A stretch of 64,000 nucleotides of DNA, taken from contig CM049322.1 in the NCBI GenBank assembly GCA_026874595.1, positions 51,673,386 to 51,737,385 on the forward strand, in the 5' to 3' direction. Both the position numbers and the translations under genes were made by a program. This document shows positions 9,928 through 47,076 of this stretch, in pieces. The notes under the pieces are model-generated. The model searched no databases. It had not been told where the DNA came from and saw nothing but the letters and a program-made list of their open reading frames with translations. Each line of letters starts with the position of its first letter. Positions within the stretch are counted from its first letter, which is position 1. This DNA is from Sipunculus nudus. Its lineage: Eukaryota > Annelida > Sipuncula > Golfingiida > Sipunculidae.

Positions 9928-10936
9928 ATCAGTGCTGAAAACACAGGGCAAATGGCCATGACAGACACCTGTGTGATGCAAGGTCAACATCACTACAACT
10001 AGAGGGTAGATCAGCACTCATTGAAAGGTCAAGGTCATCACGAAACTGACAGCTGCAATAATCATCTCAATGTCGAGAATTGTAGCCCAGTCTCCGGTAA
10101 CCTACTCCTCACGGACACTGAATAGCCGACCGAGAATGCGAGGCTTGGAAACGCACTATACAACAAGTTATGGCTCAAGCTATAAAGGTACTTCAGGAAC
10201 CTCTAGTGACCGCTTCAGCAGTCGCCACAATGATATCGGGAGCAGTGCCCGTTATCGATCATCATCAACCAGTCGAACAGGACACAACACATATTCCCCA
10301 TCTGGTCGGGCCTACGGTACCTCTTCACACGTATCCTCACATAGGCCCCTCCCACCAGGACCAGGCCCGTTTGATAGACACGGACATAAGATATCCACCC
10401 AGGAGGCTTTGGATAATTTCAGACCAGGCAGGAGCACCATTTCACATGGTCGAACACCAGTGAGAGCACCAAATTCATATCGATCACAAAGTGTTGCTAG
10501 GGATACATTTACCAATAAGTCTACGTATCCGACCACTCATGGGACTTCAAGGGGGGCAGTTAGTGAAATTACGAAAAAATTTGAAACACTCTCCACAACA
10601 GGAACTAGTAGTAACAGACTCAGCAGGAAGCAAAGCTCGGGCACTATTGATGTCAACTTCATTTCAACGACTCCGGATAAAGTTAATTCTGAGAAATATG
10701 AGTTATTTGATAAGAGTAGTAATGTGTCAACACCTACAAAATCTTATTATCCTAGTGTCACGGGAACACCACGGACGTACGATGCTGACGCTACATCGAG
10801 TGGTAAACTACCGAGCATCAGTAACCTAAGGTCAAGGTCAAATTCACGTGAGAAATTACGGAAGGACTCCCCAGACCGATCATCTAAACATGATTCCCTT
10901 GCTGGATCACGACAGAATTCTACATCATCATTAAAT
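9928..10936 (+). CDS. USP2: USP2 coding exon 1 (5' UTR 9928-10069, codons 1-289)
   Basis: An acceptor (TTTTTAATTACAG) ends at 9927. The start ATG at 10070 is preceded in frame by TGA at 10022-10024, so translation cannot begin earlier in this exon. The initiation context is weak (T at -3). A second in-frame ATG at codon 23 has A at -3 and could be used as well. The 289 codons are rich in Ser, Thr, Arg and Tyr, with no domain, signal peptide or membrane segment. The exon ends in phase 0 at a GTGAG donor at 10937, immediately followed by a T run and a mobile element that starts at 10953. Confidence 0.9.
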
Positions 10937-13900
10937 GTGAGTTTTTTTTTTTAGCTCAGCTGACTATAAGTCATCTGAGCTATAGTCGTGGTCCATTGTC
11001 CGTCGTCCGTCCGTCTGTCCGTCCGTCCGTCCGTCCGTAGATGTGGCACGTTTTGAAACCGTAAGACCTAGGAATCCAAAATTCAGCATAATGTTAGATG
11101 TCCCCAAGATCTCCTACCAAGCCGAAAACAGGGTCTTTGCGACTTCATTCCTTTGAGAAAATAAGGAAAAACCTCAATTTTTTATTAAAAACCTATTTTC
11201 ACACTTTAGGACCGCCTAATATCAAAACCACTCATCTGTTTTTCGTCATAATTCCTATAAATAATCCTCTATATAATTCCTATGTACATGCCAGAAATTA
11301 GGTCTGTATTATTTAATTTAAAAAAGTTATGGGCCCAAACATAATGCATTTTATAAATAATCAGGAAAGAAATTTTATCACTTAACACAAAACTTGTTAA
11401 AGCTAAGCACTTTTTTTCCAGTAATATTACTTTTATTAATCAAAATTAAATTGTATACCCAAAATTAGATCAAAATCTTTTAAATTTTTAAAAATATTAG
11501 CAAAAATAAAAAATTGGTACCTTATATTTTGCCCAACTTTGACCATGGCACGTTTTTTTGCTGTAACTGCTGTGGATTTAATTTTCACAGCATGTTTTTG
11601 TTAGCATTTCAACTGTTAACACCAAAAATTTGAAACCAGTTGATCAAAAACTGTAGATTTTATTCAAGTTTTCAAACACCATGTCACATATTGCTAGTGT
11701 TATGCAGTTTGCTAGAACTCAGCTCCCGAGCTTCAGCTCTAAGTTCCTTAAATTTGGCAAACAGTTAGATTTCTCCAAAATCCCCTACCATGCCAAGAAT
11801 TTGGTCACTAGGACTTAATTCCTTCGAGATATCAATGAAAAACTTCATTTTTCCATTAAAAACCCAATGTTACACTTTAAGACTGCCTAATATCAAAACC
11901 ACTGATCTGACTTTGATCATATATAATATACATATTTTTCTATACATTCACTATGTGCATGCCAGAAATGATGTCAGTATTGTGTATTTTTTTTAAGTTA
12001 TGGGCCCAAACATAATGCACTTTGTAAAAAATCAAGAAATATATTTACTCCATTAACAAGGGCATTGCTGAAGCTAGAGATTTTTTTTTGTCAGGGATGT
12101 AACATTATTTAATCAAGATTCAATTGAATACCCAAAATTAGTTCTGAATTTTTCAAATTTTATAAGTTATTAGTATAAATATAAAATTAGTACCTTAAAT
12201 TTTGCCCAACTGTGACCAAGGCATGTTTGTTTCCCGTGAGCACTGTTGATATAATTTTCATATCATGCACACATAAGGATTTCAGCTTTTTAGTTTAAAA
12301 AGCTGAAAGAAATTTGCCAAATATTGTAGCTTTTATTAATGTTTTTTATGAGACCCTGTCAGACTTTGGCTCTTTCCAGCCCCTCTTGAGTCACCTGTAT
12401 GTTGACCTTGTTGACCTTTCATCAAATTATGCACGCTTGAGGGGAGAATCCAGGCAGCTTATGGCCAGCCACAGTTGATCCAGGTGTTCAACCCAACTCA
12501 TCTAGTAGTTTTAACCAACAAAATAACAATAAACAATAAATTAATAAATTTTTATTGGTTTTTAATAACAAATTAAAGAAAAATAGAAAAGGAATTTGTT
12601 AGTTTATAATAACAGGAAATTAACTTGCAGTTACTGATGATATAAGAATCTTGTATCGATGGGTAGAATGTCACATATTCCAAATAACACCATGCAGTCA
12701 CCTATGGCATTTTTCAGTTCATTTTTAATGATAAAGAAGTAAATCATATTATTCATTACTAATCATTAAGGATTATATGAAGGAAATTAATGATAGACAA
12801 AGATGCAGTTGATAAAATTAATCTAGATTCCTACTGTGTCTAGTGTGTACATTGATGTGAAATTAGTCCAAAATGAATTTTTTACAGTTATTTTTTTAAT
12901 ATAAATAAAAGCCATAAAACCAGGTACTTATGATCATTATTTAAATGTGTGAAATTTGTATATTCTGGATTCTCAACATCATTGTTTGGTGAAAACTGAA
13001 TAAATACCAGACATGGTGCAAATACTTTGTAATTGTATTTAAATACGAATATGATTATGTACTCCATTATAAAATTTCTTGCATAAAGAATGGGAATTTA
13101 GGTAAAAATGAAAGTATATGAATACTCGTGCAAATACTTTCAAAATGTATTCATGAATGCATTCATGAATATATTCTTTAATATTATTTTAATAATCATA
13201 TCAGTTATATTTCATTTTAAAAAATCATAAGATTCTCTTATTATTTTTAATAAAAATTATATTTGGGACAATATTTGTAATTTTTTTAATAAATAGTTAA
13301 ACTCTTATATTATATGTTCTGCTTATAAGTTATATGGCCAAGTCAAAATCTGTGTGACAGTAGTACTCCATTTGTTAATAAAATAAATGAAATCAATCCT
13401 CTTCCCTGTCTCCAAAGGTACTATCAAAATCATACATAAGCTAAACAACAACAACTCATAATACAGCTTATATTTATTACCACACAAAACCAGCATGTGC
13501 CTCATTTCTAAATAATATTTTTTTATCATATAAAACAGCTGAGCGTTGTGACCCATAGGTCCCTTGTTTTCATTTTTATTAACACCATTTACATGGTAGG
13601 CATAAAATAGGCATAAACAATGTTTCAACCCCAATACCATGCAAGCTAAGATGTACTATAATCTGTCCTAAACTATTGAAAAAATGTCCCAAGAAATTAA
13701 CAAGAATAAAGTTGTTGAGGGATATTCAATGTATTCTGACATTCTTTCAACTGTTTCCATCTATGGTCAGTTGTGTAGTCAGTCCATGATATCGGAGTCT
13801 CAGTAAGTGCAGGGTACGAATTAGGCCCAAAAAATTTACATACATGTACTTCAGGTGCACCCTTGAAACAAGACCTACATGCACCTTAAGATTTCAACAT

Positions 13901-16900
13901 GCACCTGGTAATACTAGTGAGAAAATTTGTTTGTTAAGGATTTTCTGATGCTCAAAGAATAGAAATGCTAATTTATGATTGTGATGTTTAAAGATCTATA
14001 GAGAAAAAAAATAAGATACTGCACTTGTCAACATTTTATTCATCGTTTTATAATACTTGCACAGAGTGCACCCTGGGTACGATTTCTCCATGCACAAAAG
14101 AAAGTGACCATGCAAATGTGCACATGTGCCCCCTTTATTTTGCACCCTGAGAGTGCAAGTCTCAGTCCGGGCTTGATGAGTCAGAGTGCTTAATATCTGA
14201 GTCCTAATCTACCTCAAGGCTTTTAAAACTGAATCAGTCTAAAATAGTTCTTTTATCAAATAATATTTGAGTTTTCATTTTACTTAAATTTTATTTTCAT
14301 ATCCAAGCACAGTATTTAGACTATAGGTGCTTGTGGTTTACTCAGTATACATGTGAAATAAATGAGTGTACCTATGGTACTTGGCAGGAACATTTATTTT
14401 TCATTATAACTGTAAATACTTTTGTTTTATAAGTAAGTGTGGTGGGCCAAATTGTTTTATATTCACATAGTTGTGCATTATATACCATGTGCCATCAGTA
14501 GACTTGTAGTATGATTTTCCTGTCTGTTTTAAAATTGCTAGATACAGTTTTTGAAGCAAAACTACTTGTGCTTCTAAAGGCTCTAGTACATGCATGTATC
14601 TATCATTATTATTGTAATGAAGTACATATGTCTATCCTCAATATTTGACTCAAGTGCAAACGCCTATGAGGCTATGCTTATTGTAATAATATATACATAC
14701 CATGATGCATCTATCCTTATTATTGTACTTAAAAACGTACCATGATACATCTATCCTTATTATTTTCCTTAAACACATGCCATGATACATCTATCCTTAT
14801 TATTGTATTTAAACACATACCATGATAAATCTATCCTTATTATTGTATTTAAACACATACCATGATAAATCTATCCTTATTATTGTATTTAAACACATAC
14901 CATGATAAATCTATCCTTATTATTGTACTTAAACACATACCATGATACATCTATCCTTATTATTGTACTTAAAGTTAAACACATACCATGATACATCTAT
15001 CCTTATTATTGTACTTAAACACATACCATGATACATCTATCCTTATTATTGTACTTAAACACATATCATGATACATCTATCCTTATTATTGTACTTAAAC
15101 ACATATCATGATACATCTATCCTTATTATTGTACTTAAACACATACCATGATACATCTATCCTTATTATTGTACTTAAACACATACCATGATACATCTGT
15201 CCTTATTATTGTACTTAACATATTCCAGGATACATCTATCCTTATTATTGTACTTAACATATTCCAGGATACATCTATCCTTATTATTGTACTTAACATA
15301 TTCCAGGATACATCTATCCTTATTATTGTACTTAACATATTCCAGGATACATCTATCCTTATTATTGTACTTAACATATTCCAGGATACATCTATCCTTA
15401 TTATTGTACTTAACATATTCCAGGATACATCTATCCTTATTATTGTACTTAACATATTCCAGGATACATCTATCCTTATTATTGTACTTAACATATTCCA
15501 GGATACATCTATCCTTATTATTGTACTTAACATATTCCAGGATACATCTATCCTTATTATTGTACTTAACATATTCCAGGATACATCTATCCTTATTATT
15601 GTACTTAACATATTCCAGGATACATCTATCCTTATTATTGTACTTAACATATTCCAGGATACATCTATCCTTATTATTGTACTTAAACACATACCATGAT
15701 ACATCTATCCTTATTATTGTACTTAAACACATACCATGATACATCTGTCCTTATTATTGTACTTAACATATTCCAGGATACATCTATCCTTATTATTGTA
15801 CTTAACATATTCCAGGATACATCTATCCTTATTATTGTACTTAACATATTCCAGGATACATCTATCCTTATTATTGTACTTAACATATTCCAGGATACAT
15901 CTATCCTTATTATTGTACTTAACATATTCCAGGATACATCTATCCTTATTATTGTACTTAACATATTCCAGGATACATCTATCCTTATTATTGTACTTAA
16001 CATATTCCAGGATACATCTATCCTTATTATTGTACTTAACATATTCCAGGATACATCTATCCTTATTATTGTACTTAAACACATACCATGATACATCTAT
16101 CCTTATTATTGTACTTAAACACATACCATGATACATCTGTCCTTATTATTGTACTTAACATATTCCAGGATACATCTATCCTTATTATTGTACTTAACAT
16201 ATTCCAGGATACATCTATCCTTATTATTGTACTTAACATATTCCAGGATACATCTATCCTTATTATTGTACTTAACATATTCCAGGATACATCTATCCTT
16301 ATTATTGTACTTAACATATTCCAGGATACATCTATCCTTATTATTGTACTTAACATATTCCAGGATACATCTATCCTTATTATTGTACTTAAACACATAC
16401 CATGATACATCTATCCTTATTATTGTACTTAAACACATACCATGATACATCTGTCCTTATTATTGTACTTAACATATTCCAGGATACATCTATCCTTATT
16501 ATTGTACTTAACATATTCCAGGATACATCTATCCTTATTATTGTACTTAACATATTCCAGGATACATCTATCCTTATTATTGTACTTAACATATTCCAGG
16601 ATACATCTATCCTTATTATTGTACTTAACATATTCCAGGATACATCTATCCTTATTATTGTACTTAACATATTCCAGGATACATCTATCCTTATTATTGT
16701 ACTTAAACACATACCATGATACATCTATTCCTTAAGGTGCTTTTCCATTAGTGCGTAGCCTGTATCTGTAGTCAGCATGCATGGTCCGCAAAAATTGCTT
16801 TGTAGACTTTTTAACTGGGCCATTTCCATTCATCCACATGCATAGTACGTATGCGTAGTCTGTATGCGTATACCGTACCCACGGAATTTATATGCCCCCG

Positions 16901-19900
16901 CCACAAAGTGGCCGGGGCATATAGTTTTACCCATGTCCGTCCTTCCGTCATTCCGAATTCAAACAGTTGTACGGACTTTTTTTCGCAATGCCTGCAGATA
17001 TATGGTGTGTGGGCAGATATAGACCAGTTACAGATCGAGTTAGCGTTTCGTCCTGGTTGACCTACTTTTGACCGTTTTACGGCTCCTAAACTTAGAAAAT
17101 TTCATGAAAAATAGAAATATTCATGACAGATACACATGTACTGACTTTTTTTCGCAATGCCTGCAGATATTGGCCTGATATTTGGTGTGTGAGCAGATAT
17201 AGACCAGTTACAGATCGAGTTTGCGTTTTGTCCCGGTTGACTTACTTTTGACCGTTGTACAAACATAGAAAATTTCATGAAAAATAGAAATATTCATTAC
17301 AGATACACATGTACGGACTTTTTTTCGCAATGCCTGCAGATATTGGCCTGATTTTTGGTGTGTGGGCAAATATAGACCAGTTACAGATCAAGTTCGCGTT
17401 TCGTCCCGGTTGACTTACTTTTGACCGTTGTACAAACATAGAAAATTTCATGAAAAATAGAAATATTCATGAAAGATACACATGTACAGACTTTTTTCAC
17501 AATGCCTGCAGATATTGGCCTGATTTTTGGTGTGTGGACAGATATAGACCTGTTACAGATCGAGTTAGCGTTTTGTCCTGGTTGACCTACTTTTGACCGT
17601 TTTACGGCTCCTGAACATAGAAAATTTCATGAAAAATATGAAATATCATGACAAATACACATGTATGGACTTTTTTTCGCAATGCCTGCAGATATTGGCC
17701 TGATTTTTGGTGTGTGGCCAGATATTGACCAGTTACAGATTGAGTTCGCATTTCGTCCTGGTTGACCTACTTTTGACTGTTTTACGGCTCCTAAACTTAG
17801 AAAATTTAATGAAAAATAGAAATATTCATTACAGATACACATGTACAGACTTTTTTTCGCAATGCCTGCAGATATTAGCCTAATTTTTGGTGTGTGGGCA
17901 AATATAGACCAGTTACAGATCAAGTTTGCGTTTCGTCCCGGTTGACCTACTTTTGACCGTTGTACAAACATAGAAAATTTCATGAAAAATAGAAATTTTT
18001 TATTCATGAAAGATACACATGTACAGACTTTTTTTCACAATGCCTGTAGATATTGGCCTGGTTTTTGGTGTGTGGGCAGATATAGACCTGTTACAGATCG
18101 AGTTAGTGTTTCGTCCTGGTTGACCTACTTTTGACCGTTTTACGGCTCCTGAACATAGAAAATTTCATGAAAAATATGAAATATCATGACAAATACACAT
18201 ATACGGACTTTTTTTCGCAATGCCTGCAGATATTGGCCTGATTTTTGGTGTGTGGGCAGATATAGACCTGTAACAGATCGAGTTCGCATTTCGTCCTGGT
18301 TGACCTACTTTTGACTGTTTTACGGCTCCTGAACATAGAAAATTTCATGTAAAACATAAATTTTCATGACAAATACACTTGTACAGACTTTTCTTCACAA
18401 TACCTGCAGATATTGGCCTGATTTTTGGTGTGTGGGCAGATAATGACCAGTTACAGATCAAGTTCACGTTTTGTCCCAGTTGACCTATTTTTGACCGTTT
18501 GACGGTGCTTTAACAAAAGAAAATTTCATAAAAAGGTGCATATGTATGGACTTTTTTTCGCAGTGCCTGCAGATACGGGCCTGAATTTTGGTGTGTAGGC
18601 AGATAATGACCAGTTACAGATTGAGTTCTTGTTTTCTCTCAGTTGACCTACTTTTGACCATTTGACTGCTCCTGAACATAGAAAGTTTCATGAAAAATAT
18701 AAATTTTCATAACAAATGCATATGTACTTACTTTTTTTCCTCAATGCCTGCAGATACCACCCTGATTTTTTATGTGTGGGCAGATAATGACAGTTACAGA
18801 TCGAGTTCGCGTTTCATCCCGGTTGACCTACTTTTGATTGTTTTACGGCTCCTAAACCTAGAAAATTTCATGAAAGACAGATATTTTTATGGAAAATGCA
18901 CATGTATGGACTTTTTTTCACAATGCCTGCATATACTGGCATGATTTTTGGTGTGTTGCTTGATAATGACCCGTTACAGATCGAGTTTGCATTTTGCCCT
19001 TGTTGACCTACTTTTGACCATACGACACCTCCTGAACTTAAAAAAATTTTCAAAATTTTACAAATGTTTCTAATTTGCCCAAGGCGGGGGCATTCGTGTC
19101 GTTCCGACACATCTAGTTTTTTATGTGCACTATGCATACCAATCATCGTGTTGATTTCAGGTGTAGCATACAATTTCCCCATTCAGGCTGTGCTGTATGC
19201 TCAGTCTCTATGTCCAACGTGTATGAATGTCATTTTTGGCATAAGTTTTCTGGAAACCATTTGGTTGAATTTTGTTTTCCTTTCTTTTTCACAGACAACA
19301 TTTTTATTTATAATTGAAGCATAAACATCACTGTTGCATATAAAATAATAATAATTATGATCGTTTAAAAATTTTCTTATTCTAATTCTATTGTTTTAAC
19401 TTTTGATGCCAATATATACAAATGTACAATACAAATATGGTGAAATGGCTTTCAAAAAAAGAAAAACTTCAGGTATCAAGCACTTTTCAATACAGAGTAC
19501 GGACTACGCATATATGTACTTATTGAAAACAAACTTTGTGGATACGAACTACGCATTTGGACTACCCTTGTGGACTACGGATACAGACTATGCACTTATG
19601 TAAAATCACCTTTATTATTGTATGTAAACACATACCATGATACATCTGTCCTTATTGTTTTTAAACACATACCATGATGCATCTATCCTTTTACTAGTAC
19701 TTTTGTGTAGAGACAGTCATACACCTCTCCTTATTAATGCTCTCAAATACATGTATACATCTGTTTCTTTTATTGGACTCAAGTACAATGCCAAACATTT
19801 TGAAGTCTGTGTGTTTGAACTTAAATATTAGTGTAGTTTACAACATACTTGTCATAAACAGTTATGTTAAACCATGACTGAATTATTTTGTTCTTTTTAT

Positions 19901-22900
19901 TGGTTCATTTACAGACTGTGTCAGGTGCTATGACAACAGTTATGATGTCATTGTAACTGTGTGGTCCCTAGCAACCCCATGTCACCATGATCCCCTGACA
20001 AAGCTGCACATGTTACTGACATCCTAATGAGTTTGGACATGTTTTAATTAGTCAGGGCTAAAGCAGTCCTAATCACTGGGACTACTTATGGTTCACGGAG
20101 TGGACACACCACATTTTCAGATCCTTCACTATTCTTTTTTCTTGGATTATTTGTTTTCCTTCTCATGCAAAATGACAGAAGTATACACTTATCTATCACA
20201 GACCTTTAGCAGTAACAAGTCATCAGGAGCCGTCACCCGACAAGACAACTTGGGGCTTGTTGGACTACGTAACCTAGGCAACACAGTAAGTGTGATATTA
20301 TTTTTCATTTTTATTAAAATAAATCTTCAACTGATGAGCTTGAATGCTAAATTTATGTTAAAATGCAGTGTTGTCTGATTTAACATTAAGCTATAAAATG
20401 TTGTAGTTTTGCTTTCGAAGATAATATATAAAGAATATGCAGATGAGATAAAAGTAGTGTTTGTAGTGAGGCCATGTGTACAACTATTATTGGGTCATTT
20501 CTTTGAAATTTTTCCCACCGATGGTGTAAGAAAATATTGACAACTAAATTTTGTTCATGTTCTCAATATTAAATTTTAAGGTTTGTTTTATATTTTTGTG
20601 TTTGAAAATTTTTTAAAGATTAGAGATGTCCTGAATTGTTTTCTGGAGATAACATTAAGCTTGTATCGCTTTCATGAGGAGAGATGTTATTAGTATTATC
20701 TGACAGTACTTCATGAGGTTGACTTAGATGTGTGTTAGTGAAGGTACAAAAAGTGTTTTCTTTGTCTTGGTGGATATAGTCCCTTACTTTTTTTTGTGAG
20801 TCATATAGATTGATATTAGATGGAAGAATGGCAAAAAAAATTAATTGTTGTTTTATTTGGCTGCAAAATTCTCCTGTTCCTGAAATAAAGTTCACATAGA
20901 ACAGTGACAAAATATTTTATTCATATATTAATTACATTTAGGGCAACATCACTATAAACTGTATAGTTTTGTTTTGGTCACAATCTAGTCACTGATTTGA
21001 TTTGAAGTACATGGAATTAAGTCTTAATTTTTAATTTTAGTATTTATATAAATTTTAGTTATCCCGAGAATTTAGTGGAATATGTACTTTTATTATATAC
21101 TACATCTTATATTTATATTTGTGCATGAAATTTGTGTATATATGCATTTATTGTATTTGTGTCACATGATTGTATTGCTTGTTAATAAAATAATATCTGT
21201 TTACCAAGGTGAGTGCTCTGCAGGTTTAATTGGGATACTGTACCACACAGTTGTTTCACTTACAAACAAGTGCACTTTTTAGGGGTTCCTGGCTGTAACA
21301 TACCCCGGAACTGCAGGTGCAGTAGACAAGAGCCTGGTTGATGCTAGGATAACCATGTGTTTGCACCCTGTCACCCAGTCGGAAACAAGTTAGGAATTCT
21401 GTGGAAATAGGCCAGCATAACAAAAAATGGTGGAAGTTACCACCACCCAAAATTATTATTTTAAAAAAGCTGTAAAAACAGGCTTTAAATTTAGGGTGTT
21501 TCCTTGTCTGTGTTGAATTCTAAGCTGTCTTTCTTGTTTTTATCTTCCAGTGTTTCATGAACTGTATCCTTCAGTGCCTTTCGAACACGAAGCCGTTATT
21601 GGATTACATGTTGAAGGGAGAGTATAAAGATGAGATCAATATGACAACCAGTAGCATGAGTGGAGCACTAGTCCAAGGTCAGTCGCAGCACTAGCAAGGT
21701 TTACTGAACAAAATACAGGTTTTTGTGAACCTAGTCCACTTACAGACAGGGAATATACATCATATCATATGAAATGTTTTTATAATATAAACTTATTTAT
21801 TATACATGGATTGTACGAATAGTTATTATAACTAATCACGGCACTCTCCATGGCTCAGATTTTGGCGTTCGGTAGACAATAGGTGGTGGGAACTGGAGAA
21901 CCAAGAGAAAACCACCACCCTGAACGGGAAACTACAACCCACTCTCATAGCCACGCTGGGGATCAAACTTGGGTCGCCAGCGGAGAGAGCCAAGCGTTTT
22001 ACCCCTCGACTGTCCAGGCCCCAATGTTATTATGATAAAGTAATACATCTAATATACATTACACATATACTTATGTGTATGTGTTAATACTTCTGGCCAG
22101 AAGGCACATTGCATTATCAAAGGACAGGCATGGGAATTATATCAGGTTGTGCAACCTAGATTTTATGTAACCCACAAATATATTACTCAGATGTTTACTT
22201 TTGTCCATGTCTTGACGCTTCCGTAACTGAAAATTTTAATTTATTTAACAAATATAGTTTTTTGGTCACTTGAATCAAACAGAAGGATAGATGTTTGGCC
22301 TTATTACTAGGGGTTTACAGGGTAACAGGCTTATAGCCATCTAATAATTGCATAGATTAATTCCATACATGCTCTGTAGATGGCGCCAACATACAGTGTC
22401 ACATTTTTGTTCTCATCCAGGAACAGGTCAGTCAGTTAAAGAACCAAGACGTGTAGCACCAGAGCAGATAGGAATTATCTTTTCCCAAAACGTTTAGAGT
22501 TTATTTTGAAGTATCATGCTAATTAATGAGGTTCAGTCTCAATGGAATCAAAGTCCATGAACCATTAAAGATATAAAATATCTATAAAATATACAGAACT
22601 GTATTACTAAAGATCTATACATGATGTAAAAGCTGGCAAGATGACTTTCCCAGCCTCCCTCATTAATTCAAGCTGTAACTGTTTCAGTCAAGAAGGGCTA
22701 AACAAGTAAAGCATTTTGTTTTGTTTTTTCATTAAATGTAATTTTCAGTAATAAAAGGGCAAATCTTATAAGCCATTGGGACAACCCCATCTTTAACAAA
22801 CTGAAGCAACAGTTTCATGGACCTTCTCTAATCTTTTCTGTCATATGCAGGTTAATGTCAACAGTGTAAGACCACGCCCTTATATAAATGTGCTTATTTG

Positions 22901-32631: not shown

Positions 32632-34954
32632 TATTTGTATTCATTACATATATATCATTAATAAAATAACAATTGTGTGTGTGTATATATACACACACAT
32701 ACACAAGTGCCAATGTGATTGCAGGTGTTAATTTAGATTTAAAATATTGATATATTTGAATATTGTTTATAATGTATAGTATACTTTATTATAATAACAG
32801 TTGTATATGTATATGTATTAACGTAGGTGTTAATCCGGTGTACAACTTGTATGGCGTGTCTAACCACTCAGGGACTCCACTGTCAGGCCATTACACTGCA
32901 CACTGTAAACACCCGTACTCAGGAGAGTGGCACACGTTCGATGATCGCAGGTTTGTACATTCCAGAGAAATTCTATACAGAAGCATTCATTATTATGTCA
33001 GAATAGGGATGATACAATCCACTGAATGCTCTGTGCAATGAATTGCAACCCCTTGATTGATTTGGAATTGATTCATAACCTCTGAATGGGTTCAGTTAGA
33101 TTATTATTATTATTAGCCCTCAGCCCCTAGGCTGATGGGCTATTGTCATCACCCAAGCTGTCCGTCCGTCCATCCGTCCGGCGTCCGTTAACTTTTACCT
33201 TGTGAGCGGGATATCTTGAAAAGGATTCACCGTCAGAATTTTATTTCCTTGGTAAAGATGTATATCGACAAAATCTCGGTCAAGTTCGAAGATGGGTGAC
33301 CTTGACCTATTTTTCTACATTTTAGAGCTGATTATAGAAAAACACTTAGATGCTTATTACTCAGGAACCATTTGGTGGATTTTCACAAAACTTACTATGA
33401 TTATTAGGACTGATGGTCTGTACCTGCTTCACAAGTTTGGTGGCGCCACCTACAATTTCTGATTTTTAATGAATTTTTATCGGATTTTTCAACTTTGGGC
33501 TTGTGAGCGGGATATCTCTAAAAGGATTCACCGTAGGAATTTTATTTTTTCGGTGAAGATGTATATTGACAAAATCTTGGTCAAGTTCGAAGATGGGTGA
33601 CCTTGACCTATTTTTCTACGTTTTAGAGCTGATTATAGAAAAAACATTTAGAAGCTTATTTCTCAGAAACCATTGGGTGGATTTTCACAATTTTTACTAT
33701 GCTCATAGGGACTGATGGTCTGTAACTGCTGCACAAGTTTGGGGGCGCCACCTGCAATTTCTGATTTTTAATGAATTTTTCTTGGATTTTTCAACTTTGG
33801 GCTTGTGAGCGGGATATCTCTAAAAGGATTCACAAGAGGAATTTTATTTCTTTGGTGAAGACGTATATCTACAAAATCTCGGTCAAGTTCGAAGATGGGT
33901 GACCTTGACCTACTTTTCAAGGTCACAGAGCTTATAATAGAATAAAACTTAGAAGCTTATTTTTCAGGAAGCATTTGGTGGATTGTTATGAATCATGGTA
34001 CATACCTCTGCATTTAAAATTTATAACTGAGACATGTACAGATATACATCCATGTGAGAACAGATATTTAGTACTTGTTACTGTTACCACCTCTAAACAC
34101 TGTTGTTTTGGCTGAGGGCTTTTGTCAGCTTCTGCTGATATTCTAGTTTTGCATTTACCATCCCAAAGCCCTCAGTGAGTTATCAACTTTGTCTGTCAGA
34201 GCACACTGCAGTGTCGAGACTGTTTCTTGTGTATGTGCTCTAGACCTAGTTTCAGTGTTGCCAGTAACTGGACATTCCCATAGAACAGAAATGATGGCAG
34301 TAAAAGAGGGCATGCCACATTGTTCCTTCACTTTCTAAAATCAACTTGCATACAAAGTGGTAACATATTTGTGATAATTTAAAAAAAAGTCTGAACTTTT
34401 CTACTGAAGTAAAAATTAATCAAGAATTGAGTCAAAGGTAAGGAATCAATTAATTGAATCAATTCAGAGGCCCCTCACAATTTACAGGCCTAATAAGAAA
34501 TATATGGGGATTGGTATGTTCAAAATGACTGTGTAAAAAAAACTAATATAATCACATTCCCGAAACTCTTAGGGTTTGCCAGATAAGGTTGTCTCAGGAA
34601 CAGCAGAAAGTATGGATAATTGGGATGTGATGGCAAGTGCTTGAGTTCCTGCACAATATATTGATTATTTTAATATCACAATATATCCCAATTAACAAAT
34701 TTTATATTGTCATGATGTAAAAAAAAATGATGTCATCCCTATCCTAATTACCACACATTCTAACTACAATTTATCACCACTTATTTCATAATTCTGGCTC
34801 TGCATTGATTAAACTGCTGCTTATCTTTTATCTTGCTATATTTTGACCACATTGACTATTTTATTTCAGGGTGATCAGCTGTTCGGAGCCCAAAGGAGGA
34901 AGAGAAGCATACGTGTTGTTCTACGAGTTGGCAAGCCAACCCTCAAGGTTATAG
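10070..34954 (+). CDS. USP2: USP2-like ubiquitin carboxyl-terminal hydrolase (13 coding exons, complete)
   Basis: This is a cysteine protease of the USP family (peptidase C19) that removes ubiquitin from protein substrates; vertebrate USP2 acts in the cytosol and nucleus. Thirteen exons at GT-AG sites join without a frame break into 675 codons plus TAG. Residues 1-289 are a Ser/Thr/Arg-rich, probably disordered N-terminus encoded by one exon. The catalytic domain covers about 307-675. The Cys box [12 protein letters not shown] has nucleophile C318 and oxyanion N313. The QQD box follows at 402-408. Zinc-finger cysteines are C476, C479, C546 and C549. The His box [15 protein letters not shown] has H628, and WHTFDD places the third catalytic residue at D645. 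The C-terminus [15 protein letters not shown] is close to that of vertebrate USP2. The layout resembles the long USP2 isoform; vertebrate USP2 is about 605 residues, so this protein is slightly longer. USP21-like or USP8-like paralogues are less likely given the C-terminus and the zinc-finger spacing. Confidence 0.93.
10953..13566 (+). mobile_element. Helentron-type non-autonomous element (HINE/pearl-like), family 1, copy A
   Basis: The 5' end AGCTCAGCTGACTATAAG pairs with ATCTGAGCT to form a hairpin. It is followed by a TCCGTCCGTCC tract and two degenerate units of roughly 650-700 bp (starting near 11041 and 11740). An AT-rich tail follows, then an inverse CAGCTGAGCG at about 13537, a GACCC…GGTC hairpin and a CTTG end before a T run. 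No transposase or helicase frame is present. The same unit sequence recurs at 40435-41970. The plan matches non-autonomous Helitron-like elements. It lies in USP2 intron 1, starting 16 bp after the exon edge. Confidence 0.75.
13810..14149. mobile_element. Possible short hAT-like MITE
   Basis: The left end CAGGGTACGAATTAGG and the inverted right end CAGGGTGCAAAATAAAGG (complement of about 14132-14149) match at most positions. I do not see an exact 8-bp flanking duplication, so either the element is old or the boundaries are slightly off. The interior is rich in TGCACC motifs. Confidence 0.4.
14600..16733. repeat. 39/40-bp minisatellite with higher-order blocks
   Basis: Head-to-tail copies of a 39-bp unit (core GATACATCTATCCTTATTAT) alternate with 40-bp variants carrying ACACATACCATG in place of CATATTCCAGG. 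From about 15180 on they form blocks. Each block opens with a 40-bp unit bearing an ATCTG variant, continues with 12, 8, 6 and 6 uniform 39-bp units in turn, and closes with a 40-bp unit. The left margin (14600-15100) is made of more diverged, mostly 40-bp units, as expected of an older edge. Because 39 is divisible by 3 and the unit has open frames, spurious long ORFs appear on both strands. The array lies in USP2 intron 1. Confidence 0.95.
16732..19614. mobile_element. PIF/Harbinger-like element inserted into the minisatellite
   Basis: The element is 16735-19611. Its inverted ends (AGGTGCTTTTCCATTAGTGC on the left; AGGTGATTTTACATAAGTGC read inward from the right) match at about 33 of 39 positions. 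TTA flanks both sides (16732-16734 and 19612-19614), the usual Harbinger target. Repeated subterminal motifs such as TACGGACTACGCA occur near both ends. No transposase is seen, and most of the interior is another element (16888-19116). The minisatellite sequence resumes directly on the right flank. Confidence 0.8.
16888..19116 (+). mobile_element. Helentron-type non-autonomous element (HINE/pearl-like), family 2
   Basis: The 5' end is a palindrome built on TATATGCCCCCGCC and GGCCGGGGCATATA. A GTCCGTCCTTCCG tract follows, then about eleven tandem units of roughly 160-200 bp. The units share CGCAATGCCTGCAGATATTG, GTTACAGATCGAGTT and GTTGACCTACTTTTGACC. Near the 3' end GGCGGGGGCAT is the inverse of the 5' motif. 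It is followed by a perfect 6-bp stem hairpin (GTGTCG TTC CGACAC) and a CTAG terminus before a T run. The element is nested inside the Harbinger-like element. Confidence 0.8.
19612..19775. repeat. Right-hand remnant of the split minisatellite
   Basis: TTATTATTG continues into degenerate units (ACACATACCATGATACATCT, then further diverged copies to about 19775). They match the array that ends at 16733, so the array was interrupted by the element at 16735-19611. Confidence 0.85.
20088..20201 (+). other. Possible alternative 5' end of a short USP2 isoform
   Basis: The reading frame of exon 2 stays open upstream of its acceptor to ATG at 20088 (38 codons), with another in-frame ATG at 20172. A transcript starting here and reading through would give a protein lacking the 289-residue N-terminus. 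Vertebrate USP2 has such isoforms from alternative promoters. No promoter motif is evident, so this is inference only. Confidence 0.2.
20202..20285 (+). CDS. USP2: USP2 coding exon 2 (residues 290-317, start of catalytic domain)
   Basis: The acceptor is TATCACAG and the donor ACA|GTAAGTG; the exon is 84 bp, phase 0 at both ends. It encodes the linker and [11 protein letters not shown], the first part of the Cys box. The frame stays open upstream through the acceptor to an ATG at 20088, so an alternative N-terminus starting here is possible. Confidence 0.92.
21551..21677 (+). CDS. USP2: USP2 coding exon 3 (nucleophilic Cys318)
   Basis: The acceptor is TATCTTCCAG and the donor G|GTCAGT. It starts [19 protein letters not shown], giving the catalytic cysteine and the following helix. 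It ends in phase 1. Confidence 0.93.
21835..22022 (-). repeat. tRNA-derived SINE with a conserved-core-like segment
   Basis: On the minus strand it starts GGGGCCTGGACAGTCGAGGG, a tRNA-like A-box region. A B-box-like AGTTTGATCCCC follows, and then a central block with GGTGGTGGTTTTCTCTTGG and CCCACCACC. That core resembles conserved central domains shared by metazoan SINEs. I cannot assign the superfamily by eye. It lies in the intron after USP2 exon 3. Confidence 0.6.
22917..23043 (+). CDS. USP2: USP2 coding exon 4 (residues 360-402)
   Basis: The acceptor is TTTTCTTACAG and the donor AA|GTAAGT. It encodes [15 protein letters not shown] and ends at Phe-Thr-Gly-Tyr-Asn, leading into the QQD box. 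Phases 1 in, 2 out. Confidence 0.92.
23879..23998 (+). CDS. USP2: USP2 coding exon 5 (QQD box)
   Basis: The acceptor is TGTTGCAG and the donor AA|GTTAGT. It encodes [20 protein letters not shown] and an acidic loop (PDDDEDNK). The donor is directly followed by a long ACACCTGTA-type minisatellite. Confidence 0.92.
24007..24720. repeat. Degenerate ACACCTGTA / TTACATCTAC minisatellite
   Basis: Dozens of imperfect copies of a 10-20 bp motif (ACACCTGTATTACATCTAC and variants) run for about 700 bp. They begin nine bases after USP2 exon 5. Open frames here are a by-product of the repeat. Confidence 0.9.
24834..24898 (+). CDS. USP2: USP2 coding exon 6 (residues 442-464)
   Basis: The acceptor is CTCTCTTTCAG and the donor G|GTAAGT. 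It encodes [20 protein letters not shown], the conserved Trp-containing helix before the zinc finger. Confidence 0.92.
25441..25544 (+). CDS. USP2: USP2 coding exon 7 (first zinc-finger cysteine pair)
   Basis: The acceptor is TGATTATTACAG and the donor AAG|GTGAGT. It encodes [19 protein letters not shown] with zinc ligands C476 and C479, then [13 protein letters not shown]. It ends in phase 0. Confidence 0.93.
26860..26892. repeat. (CT)n-rich microsatellite
   Basis: Imperfect CT dinucleotide run within the intron between USP2 exons 7 and 8. Confidence 0.85.
27172..27237 (+). CDS. USP2: USP2 coding exon 8, a 22-codon symmetric exon
   Basis: The acceptor is TTCTTGCTGCAG; the donor ATG|GTAGGG is weaker than the others. 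It encodes 22 residues ([15 protein letters not shown] then TPSTDYM), rich in Ser, Thr and Tyr. Phase is 0 at both ends, so skipping keeps the frame. In vertebrate USP2, as I know the family, the strand after DLSLPI is followed directly by a short loop, so this segment appears to be an insertion in the fingers subdomain. It is probably alternatively spliced; constitutive use is equally open. Confidence 0.7.
27247..27558 (-). pseudogene. PHD-finger-like zinc-binding fragment, antisense in a USP2 intron
   Basis: A 103-codon minus-strand frame has a Cys-x2-Cys, His-x3-Cys and Cys-x2-Cys pattern ([12 protein letters not shown] … [10 protein letters not shown]). This resembles half of a PHD/RING-type finger as found in some LINE ORF1 or chromatin proteins. 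A Gln-rich, possibly coiled-coil tail follows. No start context, intron structure or upstream domain is visible. I read it as a retroelement-derived or retroposed fragment. It begins ten bases after USP2 exon 8. Confidence 0.4.
28417..28488 (+). CDS. USP2: USP2 coding exon 9 (residues 521-544)
   Basis: The acceptor is TATATTTACAG and the donor CCT|GTAAGT. It encodes [20 protein letters not shown] and DERP, matching the USP2 segment just before the second zinc-ligand pair. Confidence 0.93.
29183..29261 (+). CDS. USP2: USP2 coding exon 10 (second zinc-finger cysteine pair)
   Basis: The acceptor is GTACTTGCAG and the donor C|GTATCC, the weakest donor in the gene. It encodes [15 protein letters not shown] with ligands C546 and C549, then [10 protein letters not shown]. 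Confidence 0.9.
29605..30030. repeat. Inverted-repeat element with AAAAGGAC-type ends
   Basis: The left arm around 29618-29660 (AAAAAGGACTGAAAAGCACC…) and the right arm around 29985-30027 (…GGTGCTTTTTGGTCC) are imperfect inverse copies about 40 bp long. Target duplications are not clear. Possibly a degraded MITE. Confidence 0.4.
30590..31480. mobile_element. Possible hAT-like MITE hosting a second MITE
   Basis: The left end TAGAGTTGGGACCGATGATC and the right end, read inward, GTGTTGGGAGTTCC share GTTGGGA. Both sides carry GATGATCGATTA-type subterminal motifs in inverse orientation. The interior is interrupted by the TA-flanked element at 30828-31258. Exact boundaries and duplication are unclear. 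Confidence 0.45.
30826..31260. mobile_element. TA-flanked MITE with CTGTGGTTG ends
   Basis: The element is 30828-31258 (431 bp), with terminal CTGTGGTTGGC and inverse GGCAACCACAG, flanked by TA on both sides (Tc1/mariner-type target). Just inside both ends are multiple TTCGCGA motifs in inverse orientation. No coding frame. Confidence 0.75.
31742..31849 (+). CDS. USP2: USP2 coding exon 11 (residues 571-606)
   Basis: The acceptor is CCGTTGATTAG and the donor G|GTAAAT. It completes [20 protein letters not shown] and [11 protein letters not shown], a highly conserved USP core strand. Confidence 0.92.
32566..32702. repeat. (TA)n and (GT/TA)n microsatellites
   Basis: A long TA run at about 32578-32632, followed by a GTGTGTGTGTATATATACACACACA palindrome-like stretch near 32675-32702, in the intron before USP2 exon 12. 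Confidence 0.9.
32827..32950 (+). CDS. USP2: USP2 coding exon 12 (catalytic His628 and Asp645)
   Basis: The acceptor is TATTAACGTAG and the donor AG|GTTTGT. It encodes [20 protein letters not shown] and then YTAHC, with general base H628. GEWHTFDDR follows, with D645 at the position that is Asn in vertebrate USP2 and Asp in most USPs. Confidence 0.93.
33115..34146 (+). mobile_element. Helentron-type non-autonomous element (HINE/pearl-like), family 3
   Basis: The 5' hairpin AGCCCTCAGCC … GGCTGATGGGCT is followed by a TCCGTCCGTCCATCCG tract. Three tandem units of about 301 bp follow, each opening GTGAGCGGGATATCT at about 33203, 33504 and 33805 and holding GGTGACCTTGACCTA. The 3' inverse motif GGCTGAGGGCT is at 34110-34120. 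A TCAGC TTCT GCTGA hairpin follows at 34125-34138, and CTAG at 34143-34146 before a T run. It sits in the intron between USP2 exons 12 and 13. Confidence 0.8.
34870..34954 (+). CDS. USP2: USP2 coding exon 13 (C-terminus and stop)
   Basis: The acceptor is TTTTATTTCAG. It encodes [20 protein letters not shown], then ASQPSRL and TAG at 34952-34954. The Tyr-Val-Leu-Phe-Tyr-Glu motif is the last strand of the USP fold. Confidence 0.93.
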
Positions 34955-40200: not shown

Positions 40201-41970
40201 TTTTGGAGAGTTTACCATGGTAGTCACCGTTTTTAGACGAGAAATGTATATAAAAAATACACAGAAAAAAACGAAGAGTTGTTTTATGTGTGCCCTGCAG
40301 CTTTGTATTCATGTGCGTTTGTGCGTGGTTGGGGGGGGGGGGGGGTACTTTCCAAAGTATTATGAAAGAAAACATAAGTTGTGGATTTTTGTTCCCCTGG
40401 AAGTTATGAAATTAAAGCCCGGGGGATTTTTTTTAGCTCAGCTGACATTAAGCCATCTGAGCTATAGTCATGGTCCCTTGTCCGGCCGTCAGTTAAAAGG
40501 TCACGTTTTGAAACGGTTGGACCTACGGATCCAAAATTTTGCATAGAGTTGGATGTCCCCAAAAAAACTCCTTCCATACCGAACACTGAGTCACAAGGAC
40601 CTCATTTCTTTGGAGATATTAAGGAAAAACCTTAATTTTCCATTAAAACACACGGTTTCACTTCAAGGCTGCCTAACATAAGAACCACATCTGTATTGAT
40701 CATATTCAAATACATATTCCTCTATACATTTCCTATATACATACAAGAAAATATGCAAGTATTGTGTATTTTTTTAAAGTTAGGGCCGGAATATTATGCA
40801 CTTTGTAAAAAATCAGGAAATATATTTATTGTACATTAGAATTGCTCAAGCTAGAGACTTTTTTTCAAGGATATTATTTTATTTAATCAAGATTCAGTTG
40901 TATAATGAAAATTAAATTTGAATTTTGAAATTTTTTTAAGTTATAAGTATAAATATAAAATCAGTACCTTAAATTTTGCCCAAATTTGACCATGTCACCT
41001 TTTTCCCTGTTACTGCTGTTGATTTAATTGCTGTGGAAAACCGCATGTTTTCATTAGCATTTCATCTGTTTACATCTAAAATTTGTAACCAGTTGATTAA
41101 AAGCTGTATATTTTATTCAAGTTTTCAAGCACCATGTCAAGTATTTTTACATCAAGCTAGTGTTATGCATTTTGCTAGAGCTGAGTTCCCCAGGCCAGCT
41201 CTCAGCTTCCAAAATTCCCCCACCATGCCAAGAATTTGGTCACTAGTACTTTATTCTTTCGAGATATTAAGGGAAAACTTCAGTTTTCCAATAAAAACTC
41301 ATTGTTACACTTCAAGACTGCCTAATATCAAAACCACTTCTCTGACTTTGATCATATATAATATACATGTTCTTCTATACACTCCCTATGCACATGGCCA
41401 GAAATGATGTCAGTATTGCGTGTTTTATGTCATGGGCCCGAACATAATGCACTTTGTAAAAAAATCAGTAAATACATTTACTCCCTTAACATGAGAATTG
41501 CTGAAGCAAGAGATTTTTTTGTCAGGGATATAACATTATTTAATCAAGATTCAATTGAATACCCAAAATTAGTTATGAATTTTTTTCCAATTTTTATAAG
41601 GGATCAGCATAAATATAAAAAAAATAAAAAAAAAAATATAAAAAAAAGTACCTTAAAATTTGCCCAACTTTGAGACATGGCACATTTTTTTCTTGTAAGC
41701 ACTTCATATCATTTTCATATCATGCACAAATAAGGATTTCAGCTTGTTAGTTTTGAAAGCCAAAAAAATTTGGGAAAAAAACGTAGCTTTTGTTAAAGCT
41801 TTAATGAGACCATGTCAGACCCAGGCTCTACCCAGCCCCTCTTCAATCACCTGTATGTCACCTTGTTGACCTTGCAAGAAAATTATGCACGCTTGAGGCG
41901 GGGCATCTACTTGGCGGCCAGGCAGCTTATGGTTGGCTATAGTTGATCCAGGTGTCCAACCCAACTCATT

Positions 41971-44900
41971 AGCTCAGCTGACTGATAGTCATCTGAACTA
42001 TAGCGATCACTCTTTGTCCGTCGTCCGTCTGTCCGTCCGTTAACCAGGCACAAATCGTAACCGCTGTACCTAGAACCTTGTAACTTGGGATTCTGAGAGG
42101 TCCATGAAAAATCTCCTTGGAAACCAGAAATTAGGTCTCTGTTACCCATATCCTCCGAGCTATGGGGCCCGAAAGTACCCCCAGGAAAGTCAAAAATTTC
42201 ATACAAAAACTTCAATTTCTCATTAACTACTTGACTGATGGTCATGATTTTTTACATACATATTGATCATGAGATGTTCAATCAGTTCCTGCAGACTGGT
42301 GGCGCCACCTATATTTTTCGATTTTTACGATTTTTTTTTCTCTATTTTTGAGACCTTTAAAAATGTGAACATCTGTTAACAAGGCACAAATCGTAAAGAC
42401 TGGACCTAGAATCTTCATTCTTGACACACTGAGAGGTCCATGAAAAATCTTCTTGGAAACCAGAAATTAGGTCTCTGTTACCCATATCCTTCGAGGTATG
42501 GGGCCCAAAAGTACTCCCTAGAATAGTCAAAATTTCATACAAAAACTTCAATATCTCAATAACTACATCACTGATGATCATGATTTTTGGCATACATATT
42601 GATCATGAGATTTTCCATCAGATCCTGGAGACTGGTAGCGCCACCTGTATTGTTCGATTTTTTACGATTTTTCCTCTATTTTTAGACCTTTAAGGATGCT
42701 GTCATCTGTTAACGTGGCACAAATCGTAACGACTGGACCTAGAACCTTAATTCTTGACACACTGAGAGACCTATGAAAAGTCTCCAAGGAAACCAGAAAT
42801 TGGGTCTCTGTTACCCATATCCTTCGCGCTATGGGGCCCGAAAGTACCCCCCAGAAAAGTAAAAAAAAATCATACAAAAACTTCAATATCTCATTAACTA
42901 CTTCACTGATGGTCATGATTTTAAGCATACGTATTGATCATGAGATGTTTCATCAGTTTCTGCAGACTGGTGGCGCCACCTGTATTTTTCAATTTTTACG
43001 AATTGTTTTCTCTATTTTTGAGACCTTTAAAAATGTGAACAGATGTTAACAGGGCACAAATCATAAAGACTGGACCTAGAATCTTCATTCTTGACACACT
43101 GAGAGGTCCATGAAAAATCTTCTTGGAAACCAGAAATTAGGTCTCTGTTACCCATATCCTTCGAGCTGTGGGGCCCCAAATACCCCCCAGAATAGTCAAA
43201 AATTTCATACAAAAACTTCAATATCTCAATAACTACATCACTGATGGTCATGATTTTTGGCATACATATTGATCATGAGATATTCCATCAGTTCCTGGAG
43301 ACTAGAGGCGCCCCCTGTATTTTTCAATTTTTACGAATTGTTTTCTCTATTTTTGAGACCTTTAAAAATGTGAACAGCTGTTAACAGGGCACAAATCATA
43401 AAGACTGGACCTAGAGTCTTCATTCTTGACACACTGAGAGGTCCATGAAAAGTCTTCATGGAAATCTGAAATAAGGTCTCTGTTACCCATATCCTTTGAG
43501 CTGTGGAGGGCTCCCAATTACCCCCCAGAATAATGGGAAATTTGATACAAAAGCTGAAGTATCTGAACAACTAATGCAGAGATCACCACAATTGTTTGCA
43601 TGGATATTGATCATGGAGTGTTTCATCAGTTTCTGCAGACTAGTGGTGCCACCTGTATTTGTTCAGGGTTTTTTTTTACGAATTTTTTTCTCTATTTTTG
43701 AGACCTTTTAAGATATATGAACATCTGTTAACAGGGCACAAATCATAAAAACTAGACCTAGAATCTTCATTCTTGACACACAGGGAGACCCATGAAAAGT
43801 CTCCATGGAAACCTGAAATTAGGTCTCTGTTACCCATATTCCTTAAGGTGGTTGGCTCCAAAATACTCCCCAGAATAATGGAAAATTTGATACAAAAACT
43901 GCAGTATCTCAATAACTACAACACTGATGGTCATGATTTTCGGCATACATATTGATCATGAGCTGTCCCATCAGTTTCTGCAGACTGGGTGCGCCACCTC
44001 TATTTTTTTCAATTTTTTACGAATTTTTTCTCCTTTTTTATGAGACCTTAAAAGATGTGGTTATCTGTCAACAGGGTACAAATCGCAACAACTGGACCCA
44101 GAATCTTCATTCTTGTCATGCAAGGAGGCCCATGAAAAGTGCCTGTGGAAACTTGAAATTAGGTCTCTGTTACCCATATCCTTCAAGCTATAGGACTCCT
44201 AAGTATCCCTCAGAATTATTAACAATTTGATACAAAAACTGAAGTATCTGAACAACTAATGCGAAGATCACTATGATACTTTGCATGGATATTGACCATT
44301 CAAGTGTTTTTATTAGTTTCTGCAGACTGGTGGAGCCACCTGTATTTTTGTATCCACCAAAACGAAGTTTTGCCGATACTATGTTTTTGACCGGGTTCCT
44401 CCGCCGCCGCCGTGTTCGTTTCCAGAGAACTCCTCTGAGACTTATAGATCGATTTTTCCGAAACTTACACCAGTTATCGGGTCACATGTGAACTTGTGCC
44501 TAACCAATTTGCGTTGACCTCTGACCTTTCCTCTCTGCCATGCGTCCATTTATGCGTCTGTTTCCACACATAAACCCTCATATCTCGGGAACCGTTTGAC
44601 CGATCAGGAAAATAAAATTTATACAAATGTAGCCCTTGGATAGCTTTATAACATACACAAAAATGGTGGCGCCACCTGTAACCATGTTTGCACAGTGTCC
44701 ATCTGTTCATCTGCCTTGGGTTAAAATCACTCATATCTCTGCAGTGAATCGACTAATTCACCTGAAATTCGGCATGCGTATACATCCTGGATAGCTTTCT
44801 TGATTTTATGACAGGTGGCGCCACCTACATTATAGTTTACGCTGCAGACATCGAAGCTCATATCTCGGGAACCGTTTGACCGATTGCGCCAAAATTGTGC

Positions 44901-45436
44901 ATGTGTATAGATCTCACATAGTTTTTTATCATACGCAAAACTGGTGGCGCCACCTGCAACCATTTTTGCACAGCCTGCGTCTGTTTGTCTGCCGTGGGCT
45001 AAAATCACTCATATACATGTAGTGGTTTGACTTTTCTGCCTAAAATTTCGCATATGTATACAACTTGGACAGCTTTCTGGATTTGTGGTAGGTGGCACAA
45101 CCTACATACACATTTAGGCTGCAGACATCCATGCTAATATGCAACATACCTCACTCTATTTCCCCTTGCCACTCAATCCATGCCTCACTTCACCCATTCC
45201 ACTCTGATTTTGGCGGATACATGTAGTCACTTGTCGGCTACCCGTATTCTAGTTTTTAAAGTTTACACATTTTTTTTTCAATTTTTTAGATATATAAATA
45301 CAGACTTAATCTTGGCCTGTTGGTTAATCTGTTTCATGCTTCAGTTGAATGAGTATATACTACCATTCTGATGATAAAATTTCCTTTTGCGAATCTCTTC
45401 CCAGTCAGCTGAGCGTCATGACCCATGGGTCACTTG
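41971..45436 (+). mobile_element. Helentron-type element, family 1-related termini with a different core (middle of the nest)
   Basis: The 5' end AGCTCAGCTGACTGATAG forms a hairpin with ATCTGAACT, followed by TCCGTCGTCCGTCTGTCCG. About seven degenerate tandem units of roughly 335-350 bp start near 42040, 42374, 42708, 43044, 43380, 43730 and 44068. Each has GGCACAAATCGTAA, GTCTCTGTTACCCATATCC and a GGTGGCGCCACCTGT-like end. The 3' end has TCAGCTGAGCG, a perfect TGACCC AT GGGTCA hairpin and CTTG before a T run. The termini match the outer element but the core does not. The last unit is interrupted by the element at 44350. Confidence 0.75.
44350..45252 (+). mobile_element. Helentron-type element, family 4 (innermost of the nest)
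   Basis: The 5' palindrome GTATCCACCAAAACGAAG / TTTTGCCGATAC is followed by a core of two or more units. These contain CATATCTCGGGAACCGTTTG and GGTGGCGCCACCT. The 3' inverse motif TTTTGGCGGATAC is at about 45210-45222, with a GTAG…CTAC stem and CTAG at 45249-45252 before a T run. It lies within the last unit of the surrounding element, after CCACCTGTATTTTT. Confidence 0.75.
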
Positions 45437-47076
45437 TTTTGACCAACAACTTAACAATAAACAATAAGTACATATATTTTTATTGTTTTTTTTAATAACA
45501 AATTGAAGAAATAATAATAGAAAAGGAATTTTAAAGTTGATGAGTTACAAGAAATTACCTTGCAATTACTGATGTTGTAAAGTCTTGTATGGATGTATTC
45601 CATGTGAAATTGTATTCCAAATAACACCATGCAGCCTATTGTATAATTTTTTATTGATTATTTGTTTTTTTTTTCATATTTAATATATATAATTATTCCT
45701 CTATACATTTCCTATGTACATACCCAGACATTAAATCTGTATTGCGTAATGTCTTTAAGTTATTTGCCTCAGGATAACGCACTTTGTAAAAAAATCAGGA
45801 AATATATTTACTCACAAGAGAATTGCTAAACCTAGAGACTTTTTCAGGGCTTTAACTTTATTTAATCCAGTGTGAATTGTATACCCAAAAATTAGATCCA
45901 AATTTTGCCTTTTTAAGTTACTAGCATAAATATAAAATCAGTACCTTAAAGTATAACCATATATTACTATGGCACGTTTTTTTCCTGTAAGTGCTGTGGA
46001 TTTAAATTTCACAGCATGAACACATAAGCATTTCATCTGTTAAAATCTAAAATTTGAAACCAAATGATACAAAAAATGGTTTGCAGTGATTTTCAAGCAC
46101 CCTGTCGAGTACTGTTTACATCACACCATGCAGCCCAGAACAGTGGTATGCAGTGTGATTTGTAGAGCTAGCCCTCAGGCTGTTGTGTAATCGCTTCACT
46201 CCTGGCCAGCTCTCTCTGTCTAGGTGAGCTAGATCAGGCTGTCTGCAGTACCTACCCCAATTCTGTTTACAGACCTGTACAATAAACAAGATATATCTTT
46301 AATTTCATATTTTTTTTCAGCAACCAGCAGAGGCCACAGACTCCTCCCCCCAAGACCCCTTCAATACACAGGACTAATAAACAAGATGAATCTTATAATT
46401 TCAATGTTAAATTCATTTCTTTGTTGAGACTTGAAAAATTTTAATTTCTAACCAAAAAAAATCAGGATTTGAATCCTAATATTCAAATGTGATAAAATAT
46501 TAGGATCTAATGCAAGAGCTTTTTTTATATGCTTTAAGGTTTTTATAAGATACAAATACTTTGTAGCATTTGATTCGTATCTCTGAAAGTTGGCTGGGCC
46601 TTGATATGAATAACACTGTCAAAATTATTAATCAGAAATATTGGGAAAACTTTCTTGGAATTAATATTTAGCTCATATGGCCATATATTTAACGATTGAC
46701 AAATTAATTACATTCACACTTTTTTTTTTCTTATTACATCATTAAATGGTTACAGGCCACAAGTTTCATTTTTACACAGTGCAAATGTGATTTATACCTA
46801 ATTGCAATTGGCTTGTTTTAACATGATTATTAAAGTTTGTTCATGCTCATTTAAATTTTTTACAGCAGTCTATTTCAGGTTATAAATAAATGTTTATTAT
46901 TATACTTTGGCTCATGTCCTTTATTCTATAATTTACAGGGTTTCATTTTTGCAGGGCCTTTTCATCTCTGCCTATCAAATGCTAATATTTATGAAAAACC
47001 AATAGAAATAAGTAAATTTTGCATTTGCAAAAATTTTCCTAACTTTAGCAGAGCGACGTGACCCATGGGTTCCTTG

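Follow-up and report, generated by a model that had tools for sequence, protein, structure and literature searches.

The window (the whole analysed stretch of Sipunculus nudus DNA, 64,000 bases, no N) contains a locus whose best supported reading is a nest of Helitron-superfamily insertions, in which element B was entered by element C and C was then entered by element D. As to age, the locus yields nothing beyond this order (B, then C, then D). The ends of A, B and C are of one type, those of D of another (Table 1). Judged by their sequence anatomy, all six elements, A to F, are HINEs, i.e., non-autonomous Helentrons.

Table 1. Elements, core array and 3′ ends of the nest, with the separate elements of the window.
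Feature	Position	Strand	Evidence, ends or remarks
B, outer HINE, 6642 bp including insert; core monomers of about 660 bp on both sides of C	40435–47076	+	Aligned to A; 5′ AGCTCAGCTGAC; degraded 3′ TAGCAGAGCG..GACCCATGGGTTCCTTG; 3′ end recurs at 57659–57560
C, HINE within B, 3466 bp including insert D; 335-bp core	41971–45436	+	A/B-type ends
C core tandem array, period 335, 6.8 copies	42039–44349	+	TRF
D, HINE within the C array	44351–45252 (start 44350 or 44351)	+	Ends TATCCACCAAAA and TTTTGGCGGATA..TTCTAG
C 3′ subterminal repeat CAGCTGAGCG, palindrome TGACCCATGGGTCA (45419–45432), CTTG end	45406–45436	+	
B 3′ subterminal repeat (degraded), palindrome, CTTG end	47046–47076	+	3 mismatches to the 3′ motif
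A, uninterrupted HINE, 2614 bp; gives the empty site for C	10953–13566	+	Ends as in B and C
E, separate HINE, 302-bp core with the C/D palindrome	33115–34146	+	Subterminal inverted repeat (subTIR) AGCCCTCAGCC; end TTCTAG
F, separate HINE, 180-bp core	16892–19116	+	subTIR ATGCCCCCGCC; end ATCTAG

Nested arrangement

Copy A is the sole uninterrupted copy used as a reference. BLAST of A on the window aligns A 10953–12501 with B 40435–41969 (75.7% of 1614 columns, gaps counted; 81.9% identity over ungapped columns in a separate alignment of the left parts) and A 12508–12697 with B 45436–45634 (80% of 200 columns). Since A matches B on either flank of C and is itself without C, B is interrupted at 41971–45436. 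The 3466 bases between the aligned parts of B have a single match to A (BLAST, E up to 1e-4), formed by the first 70 nt of C, which are 80% identical to the first 70 nt of A and match at A's own 5′ end. The 5′ motif occurs eight times in the window at up to two mismatches (0.73 expected) and is exact at 10952, 40434 and 41970. The 26-nt 3′ motif, at up to three mismatches, occurs three times (0.00 expected), with no mismatch at 13536 (A) and 45406 (C) and with three at 47046 (B). The ends run 5′(B), 5′(C), 3′(C), 3′(B) along the window; this order and the alignment of A together establish the nest.

Several claims of the first-pass annotation are borne out: B can be rejoined across 41971–45436 by comparison with A, the words quoted as common to A and B are found in the sequence, and the insert has termini related to those of the outer element. 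The same applies to the third element, D, which sits at the end of the 335-bp array of C and has its own ends. A and B differ at 18% of ungapped columns; this divergence mixes time before and after insertion and therefore dates nothing.

Element boundaries and insertion sites

At the 5′ end, A, B and C each start with AGCTCAG, preceded by T. At the C junction, A reads CTCAT-CTAGTAG-TTTTAACC (junction sequence CTCATCTAGTAGTTTTAACC) and rejoined B reads CTCAT-(T)TTTTGACC. Across the join, 262 of the 309 aligned bases agree, and the junction itself carries a 6-nt gap. Base-level alignment of A to B thus recovers the interruption, and because A carries 6–7 extra nucleotides there, it places the site of C to a few bases, inexactly. 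The ‘exact empty sites’ proposed earlier are accordingly not upheld for C, nor for D, whose site is T-rich and whose register is approximate.

The last ~100 bp of B recur on the minus strand at 57659–57560 (78.6% of 103 columns), with the similarity ending between CTTG and the following T; as this second copy stops at the same point, the 3′ boundary of B is confirmed. The copy is a solo 3′ end with TTTTTAGCT directly before it and is perhaps an element that has lost nearly its whole inside. The right parts of A and B (12700–13566 and 46200–47076) show no overall similarity beyond chance (local score 35; best of 100 shuffles 37), and their terminal ~30 nt fit the common 3′ pattern. With shared left parts and right parts that differ save for these last ~30 nt, the right half appears to have been replaced.

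A T follows the 3′ CTTG or CTAG end in all six elements; since the strict scan described below already demands it of A, C, E and F, the free tests are B and D. The left eight bases of the six elements contain 8, 8, 3, 6, 6 and 4 T residues, the value of 3 belonging to C, and the empty sites are approximate. The earlier statement that each insertion falls in a T-rich site with T after the 3′ end is borne out for the T and not confirmed for the left flank of C.

Element D opens with TATCCACCAAAA, with TTTTGCCGATA near it, and contains a CCG microsatellite. Its core has two ~280 bp units, 75% alike (BLAST), which resemble four half-units; its repeat pair occupies 44351–44362 and 45208–45219 (TTTTGGCGGATA), and its end, TTCTAG, is followed by TTTTT. 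The repeat pair by itself gives five matches at up to two mismatches against 4.87 expected, which is not beyond chance, and D is not recovered by the strict HINE-anatomy scan of the window; its placement is therefore based on the whole anatomy and on the splitting of the C array. The right flank of D aligns from its first base to three of six C monomers (scores 33, 32 and 34; best of 100 shuffles 27, 31 and 29) and starts at least 9 bases in against the other three (29, 21 and 34; best shuffles 34, 34 and 27). These shuffles preserve nothing beyond base composition, in a sequence rich in T. The best alignment of the rejoined flanks is with the monomer at 42960–43060, with 69 of 84 aligned bases identical.

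Anatomy of the elements

The common plan comprises a subterminal inverted repeat at the 5′ end, accompanied by an inverted repeat close by, a microsatellite, a tandem core, a complementary 3′ repeat, a short palindrome and CTTG or CTAG followed by T. It agrees with the plan published for HINEs (PMC4067079, PMC7492417). The strict scan sought a 10-nt 5′ repeat after T, an inverted repeat starting within 14 nt and the 3′ repeat, with at most two mismatches in all, then the palindrome and CTWG before T. All five anchors that it found lie on the plus strand, and 30 dinucleotide shuffles gave one in total. The anchors are A, F, E, C and the 5′ end of B, which is paired with the 3′ end of C because B's own 3′ repeat is degraded. 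The strict thresholds were set after the result of a looser scan had been seen, and the shuffles were run under the same thresholds. That first scan, with 13 matches against 5, 11, 10, 7, 9 and 7 in six shuffles, was dropped.

The 5′ subterminal repeat, the nearby inverted repeat and the complementary 3′ repeat are present in the five anchors; D has the pair, and the 3′ repeat of B is degraded. Among the tandem parts, the GTCC array of A and the cores of C, E and F were found by TRF, and the core repeats of A and B and the two units of D by BLAST. The microsatellites of C, D, E and F were identified by eye; that of B is degraded. Inverted words lie near the 3′ ends, with DNA folding z-scores of −2.40 (F), −2.22 (E), −1.78 (A), −0.52 (D), −0.44 (C) and +1.23 (B); as values below −2 occur solely in E and F, folding gives good support for the hairpin in these two of the six elements. 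The ends of E are of a third kind.

None of the elements showed a sign of encoding a transposase, and the longest ORF of B (40973–41404) has no Pfam match. A Pfam search with ten references (eight ORFs and two exon stretches) gave UCH as the sole match above the cut-off, and no autonomous partner was seen among them; an Rfam search of the window gave no matches. Relatives were also sought among the viral_contigs and genome_contigs. The palindrome pattern appears in six viral contigs, and the scan of genome_contigs gave one contig; these occurrences were taken as chance. The matches listed for the contigs against A, the C array, D and E (E up to 10) span at most 31 nt, the lowest E value, 2e-5, falling on the searched word itself. 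The other short patterns scanned in viral_contigs had no match.

Core arrays and the shared palindrome

The profile of each core was compared with the remaining cores, and 100 dinucleotide shuffles were run for each comparison. The six comparisons among C, D and E score higher (9.4–28.6 bits) than any of their shuffles, and the three cores have in common, under different ends, a segment centred on GGTGGCGCCACC. The profile of the A/B core scores 13.0 bits on C (reached by 0 of 100 shuffles), and the reverse comparison scores 1.9 bits (1 of 100); the ‘unrelated tandem core’ assigned earlier to the insert is thus not confirmed, and the relation among C, D and E is clearer. The A/B core gives no signal against D, E or F in the directions tested. 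Between F and E the scores are 6.2 bits (F to E) and 4.1 bits (E to F), neither of them reached in 100 shuffles; the F core gives no clear signal with the other cores, and a relation is not claimed.

With the palindrome masked in the target, only the comparison of C with E stays above all shuffles (4.6 bits); the remaining five are reached by 1, 3, 5, 11 and 100 of 100 shuffles. Because masking removes most of the signal, a shared motif in a matching position is claimed, and not homology of the whole segment. At up to two mismatches, GGTGGCGCCACC occurs 14 times against 0.36 expected (six in C, four in D, two in E and two elsewhere), the tandem copies not being independent of one another. Exact copies make up two of the seven in C, and the motif thus shows no special preservation within this element. 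Common ancestry, exchange or a retained function may explain why the cores share it.

The GGTGGCGCCACCT palindrome lies at matching places of the diverged monomers of C, D and E, and in C it is followed by a T-run. We consider it rather unlikely that it is a retained functional motif, which might act as a pseudo-terminator promoting array growth during rolling-circle copying, or might be half of a CTCF-like site spread in tandem by the elements in a host with other DNA rich in CTCF-like sites. A functional palindrome would bear on why Helentron cores are tandem arrays. The CTCF-like consensus is YAGRKGGCRS. Full CTCF sites in the cores were considered and rejected: of 12 exact sites for the 10-nt consensus, four lie within three mismatches of the 15-nt one. 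A search for the palindrome string in the literature led to a paper that, by its title, concerns a bacterial chitinase.

Outside the elements, the CTCF-like consensus CCASYAGRKGGCRSY occurs seven times at up to one mismatch in 50,835 bp, at 2618, 29819, 38579, 39518, 51504, 51664 and 53702; 40 shuffles gave a mean of 0.07 and at most one, and the reversed sequence gave none.

Neighbouring features

An element of 2877 bp, at 16735–19611, lies in a 39/40-bp satellite array (about 14610–16734 and 19615–19690). Its terminal inverted repeats are imperfect (33 of 39 outer bases), and its target duplication, TTA, suggests PIF/Harbinger. With the element removed and one TTA kept, 47 of 49 bases of the rejoined flanks agree with the satellite, and the alignment contains one 1-nt gap. 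HINE F lies inside it, giving a second three-level nest with an empty site cleaner than that of C.

The best solved-structure match of translated 32817–32969 is ubiquitin carboxyl-terminal hydrolase 2 (E 1.4e-14), and the stretch scores 45.6 bits on Pfam UCH (cut-off 23.9). Together with 10025–10951 and 20190–20300, it is likely to represent exons of a USP2-like gene; the first two of these were read by eye and the third is the one supported by the searches. Element A begins ~10 nt after GTGAGT, a possible splice donor of exon 10025–10951.

Proposed insertion mechanism and alternative readings

The nesting, the anatomy and the T behind each 3′ end, all directly observed, are best accounted for by three successive HINE insertions (probability about 0.9). 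In this reading B landed first; C, with ends of the A/B type, later inserted inside B, and D, with other ends, then entered a T-run of the C tandem array. By analogy with published Helentron work, the Rep/helicase of an autonomous Helentron, acting in trans, would recognise the 5′ subterminal repeat and the 3′ palindrome, and rolling-circle replication would copy the element into T-rich DNA, with a preference for TT and without target duplication. The autonomous partner would be expected to carry AGCTCAGCTGAC or TATCCRCCAAAA ends.

It is very unlikely that 40435–47076 moved as a unit, as one composite HINE with several arrays. Cg_HINE_10_13 and Cg_HINE_11_12 do have two arrays in series (PMC7492417), and the strict scan pairs the 5′ end of B with the 3′ end of C; however, the ends of C are complete, A carries both B flanks without C, and D has its own ends in the middle of C. 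That A lost an ancestral C, leaving CTAGTAG behind, is highly improbable: the 6–7 nt difference between A and B lies exactly at the junction, but insertion is the simpler reading for an element whose ends are complete, and since the left A/B alignment (1612 columns) has six gaps of at least 5 nt, a gap of that size by the junction is unremarkable.

The probability that the elements are canonical Helitrons and not of the Helentron type is very low. D, E and F do end in CTAG, which conforms to CTRR, and a palindrome is present close to the 3′ end; nevertheless, the canonical combination of 5′ TC, 3′ CTRR and insertion between A and T is found in none of the six elements. Their 5′ starts are AGCT, TATC, AGCC or ATGC, with no 5′ TC, CTTG is the end of three of them (A, B and C), the base to the left of the 5′ end is T (G or T for D) and not A, and the inverted repeats are subterminal. 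Of the Helitron-like nest with a relative order described in the first-pass annotation, the nest and the order are retained, and the anatomy is that of HINEs. Three successive HINE insertions remain the preferred reading.

Comparison with known systems

The kind of element and the nesting habit are already known. The Cg_HINEs of Crassostrea gigas (PMC7492417) correspond to the elements here in 5′ subTIR, inverted repeat, GTCC-like microsatellite, tandem core, 3′ subTIR and palindrome, and insert at T-rich sites without target duplication, with some of the T-rich empty sites lying within other repeats. Their core monomers are mostly 140–180 bp, as against 180, 302, 335 and about 670 bp here (about 140 or 280 bp in D), the comparison being of plan and not of sequence. 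In Cg_HINEs an array type is tied to one flank pair (PMC7492417), whereas here C, D and E share a motif under different ends. The bivalve Pearl elements, as cited in PMC7492417, are likewise non-autonomous, have short central arrays and were later classed with Helentrons; this likeness, too, is one of description and not of compared sequences.

HINE/DINE-1 elements of mites and Drosophila (PMC4067079) are non-coding and have subTIRs, a 3′ palindrome and a T-rich/TT preference; the elements here resemble them in their subTIRs and probably in the other traits, a likeness of features rather than of compared sequences; their autonomous partner has been identified, whereas none is seen here. The order of three insertions and the near base-level boundaries obtained for HINE families can help annotation. 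In the shuffled C. gigas Helitron loci reviewed in PMC12628747, Helitron structures likewise lie within other elements, and the same array type occurs across different Helitron elements, as does the motif here. Given published oyster HINEs with satellite-like cores and inserted Helitron structures, the nest is of an ordinary kind; what differs from the shuffled loci is that a single locus is here separated into its successive layers, boundaries included.
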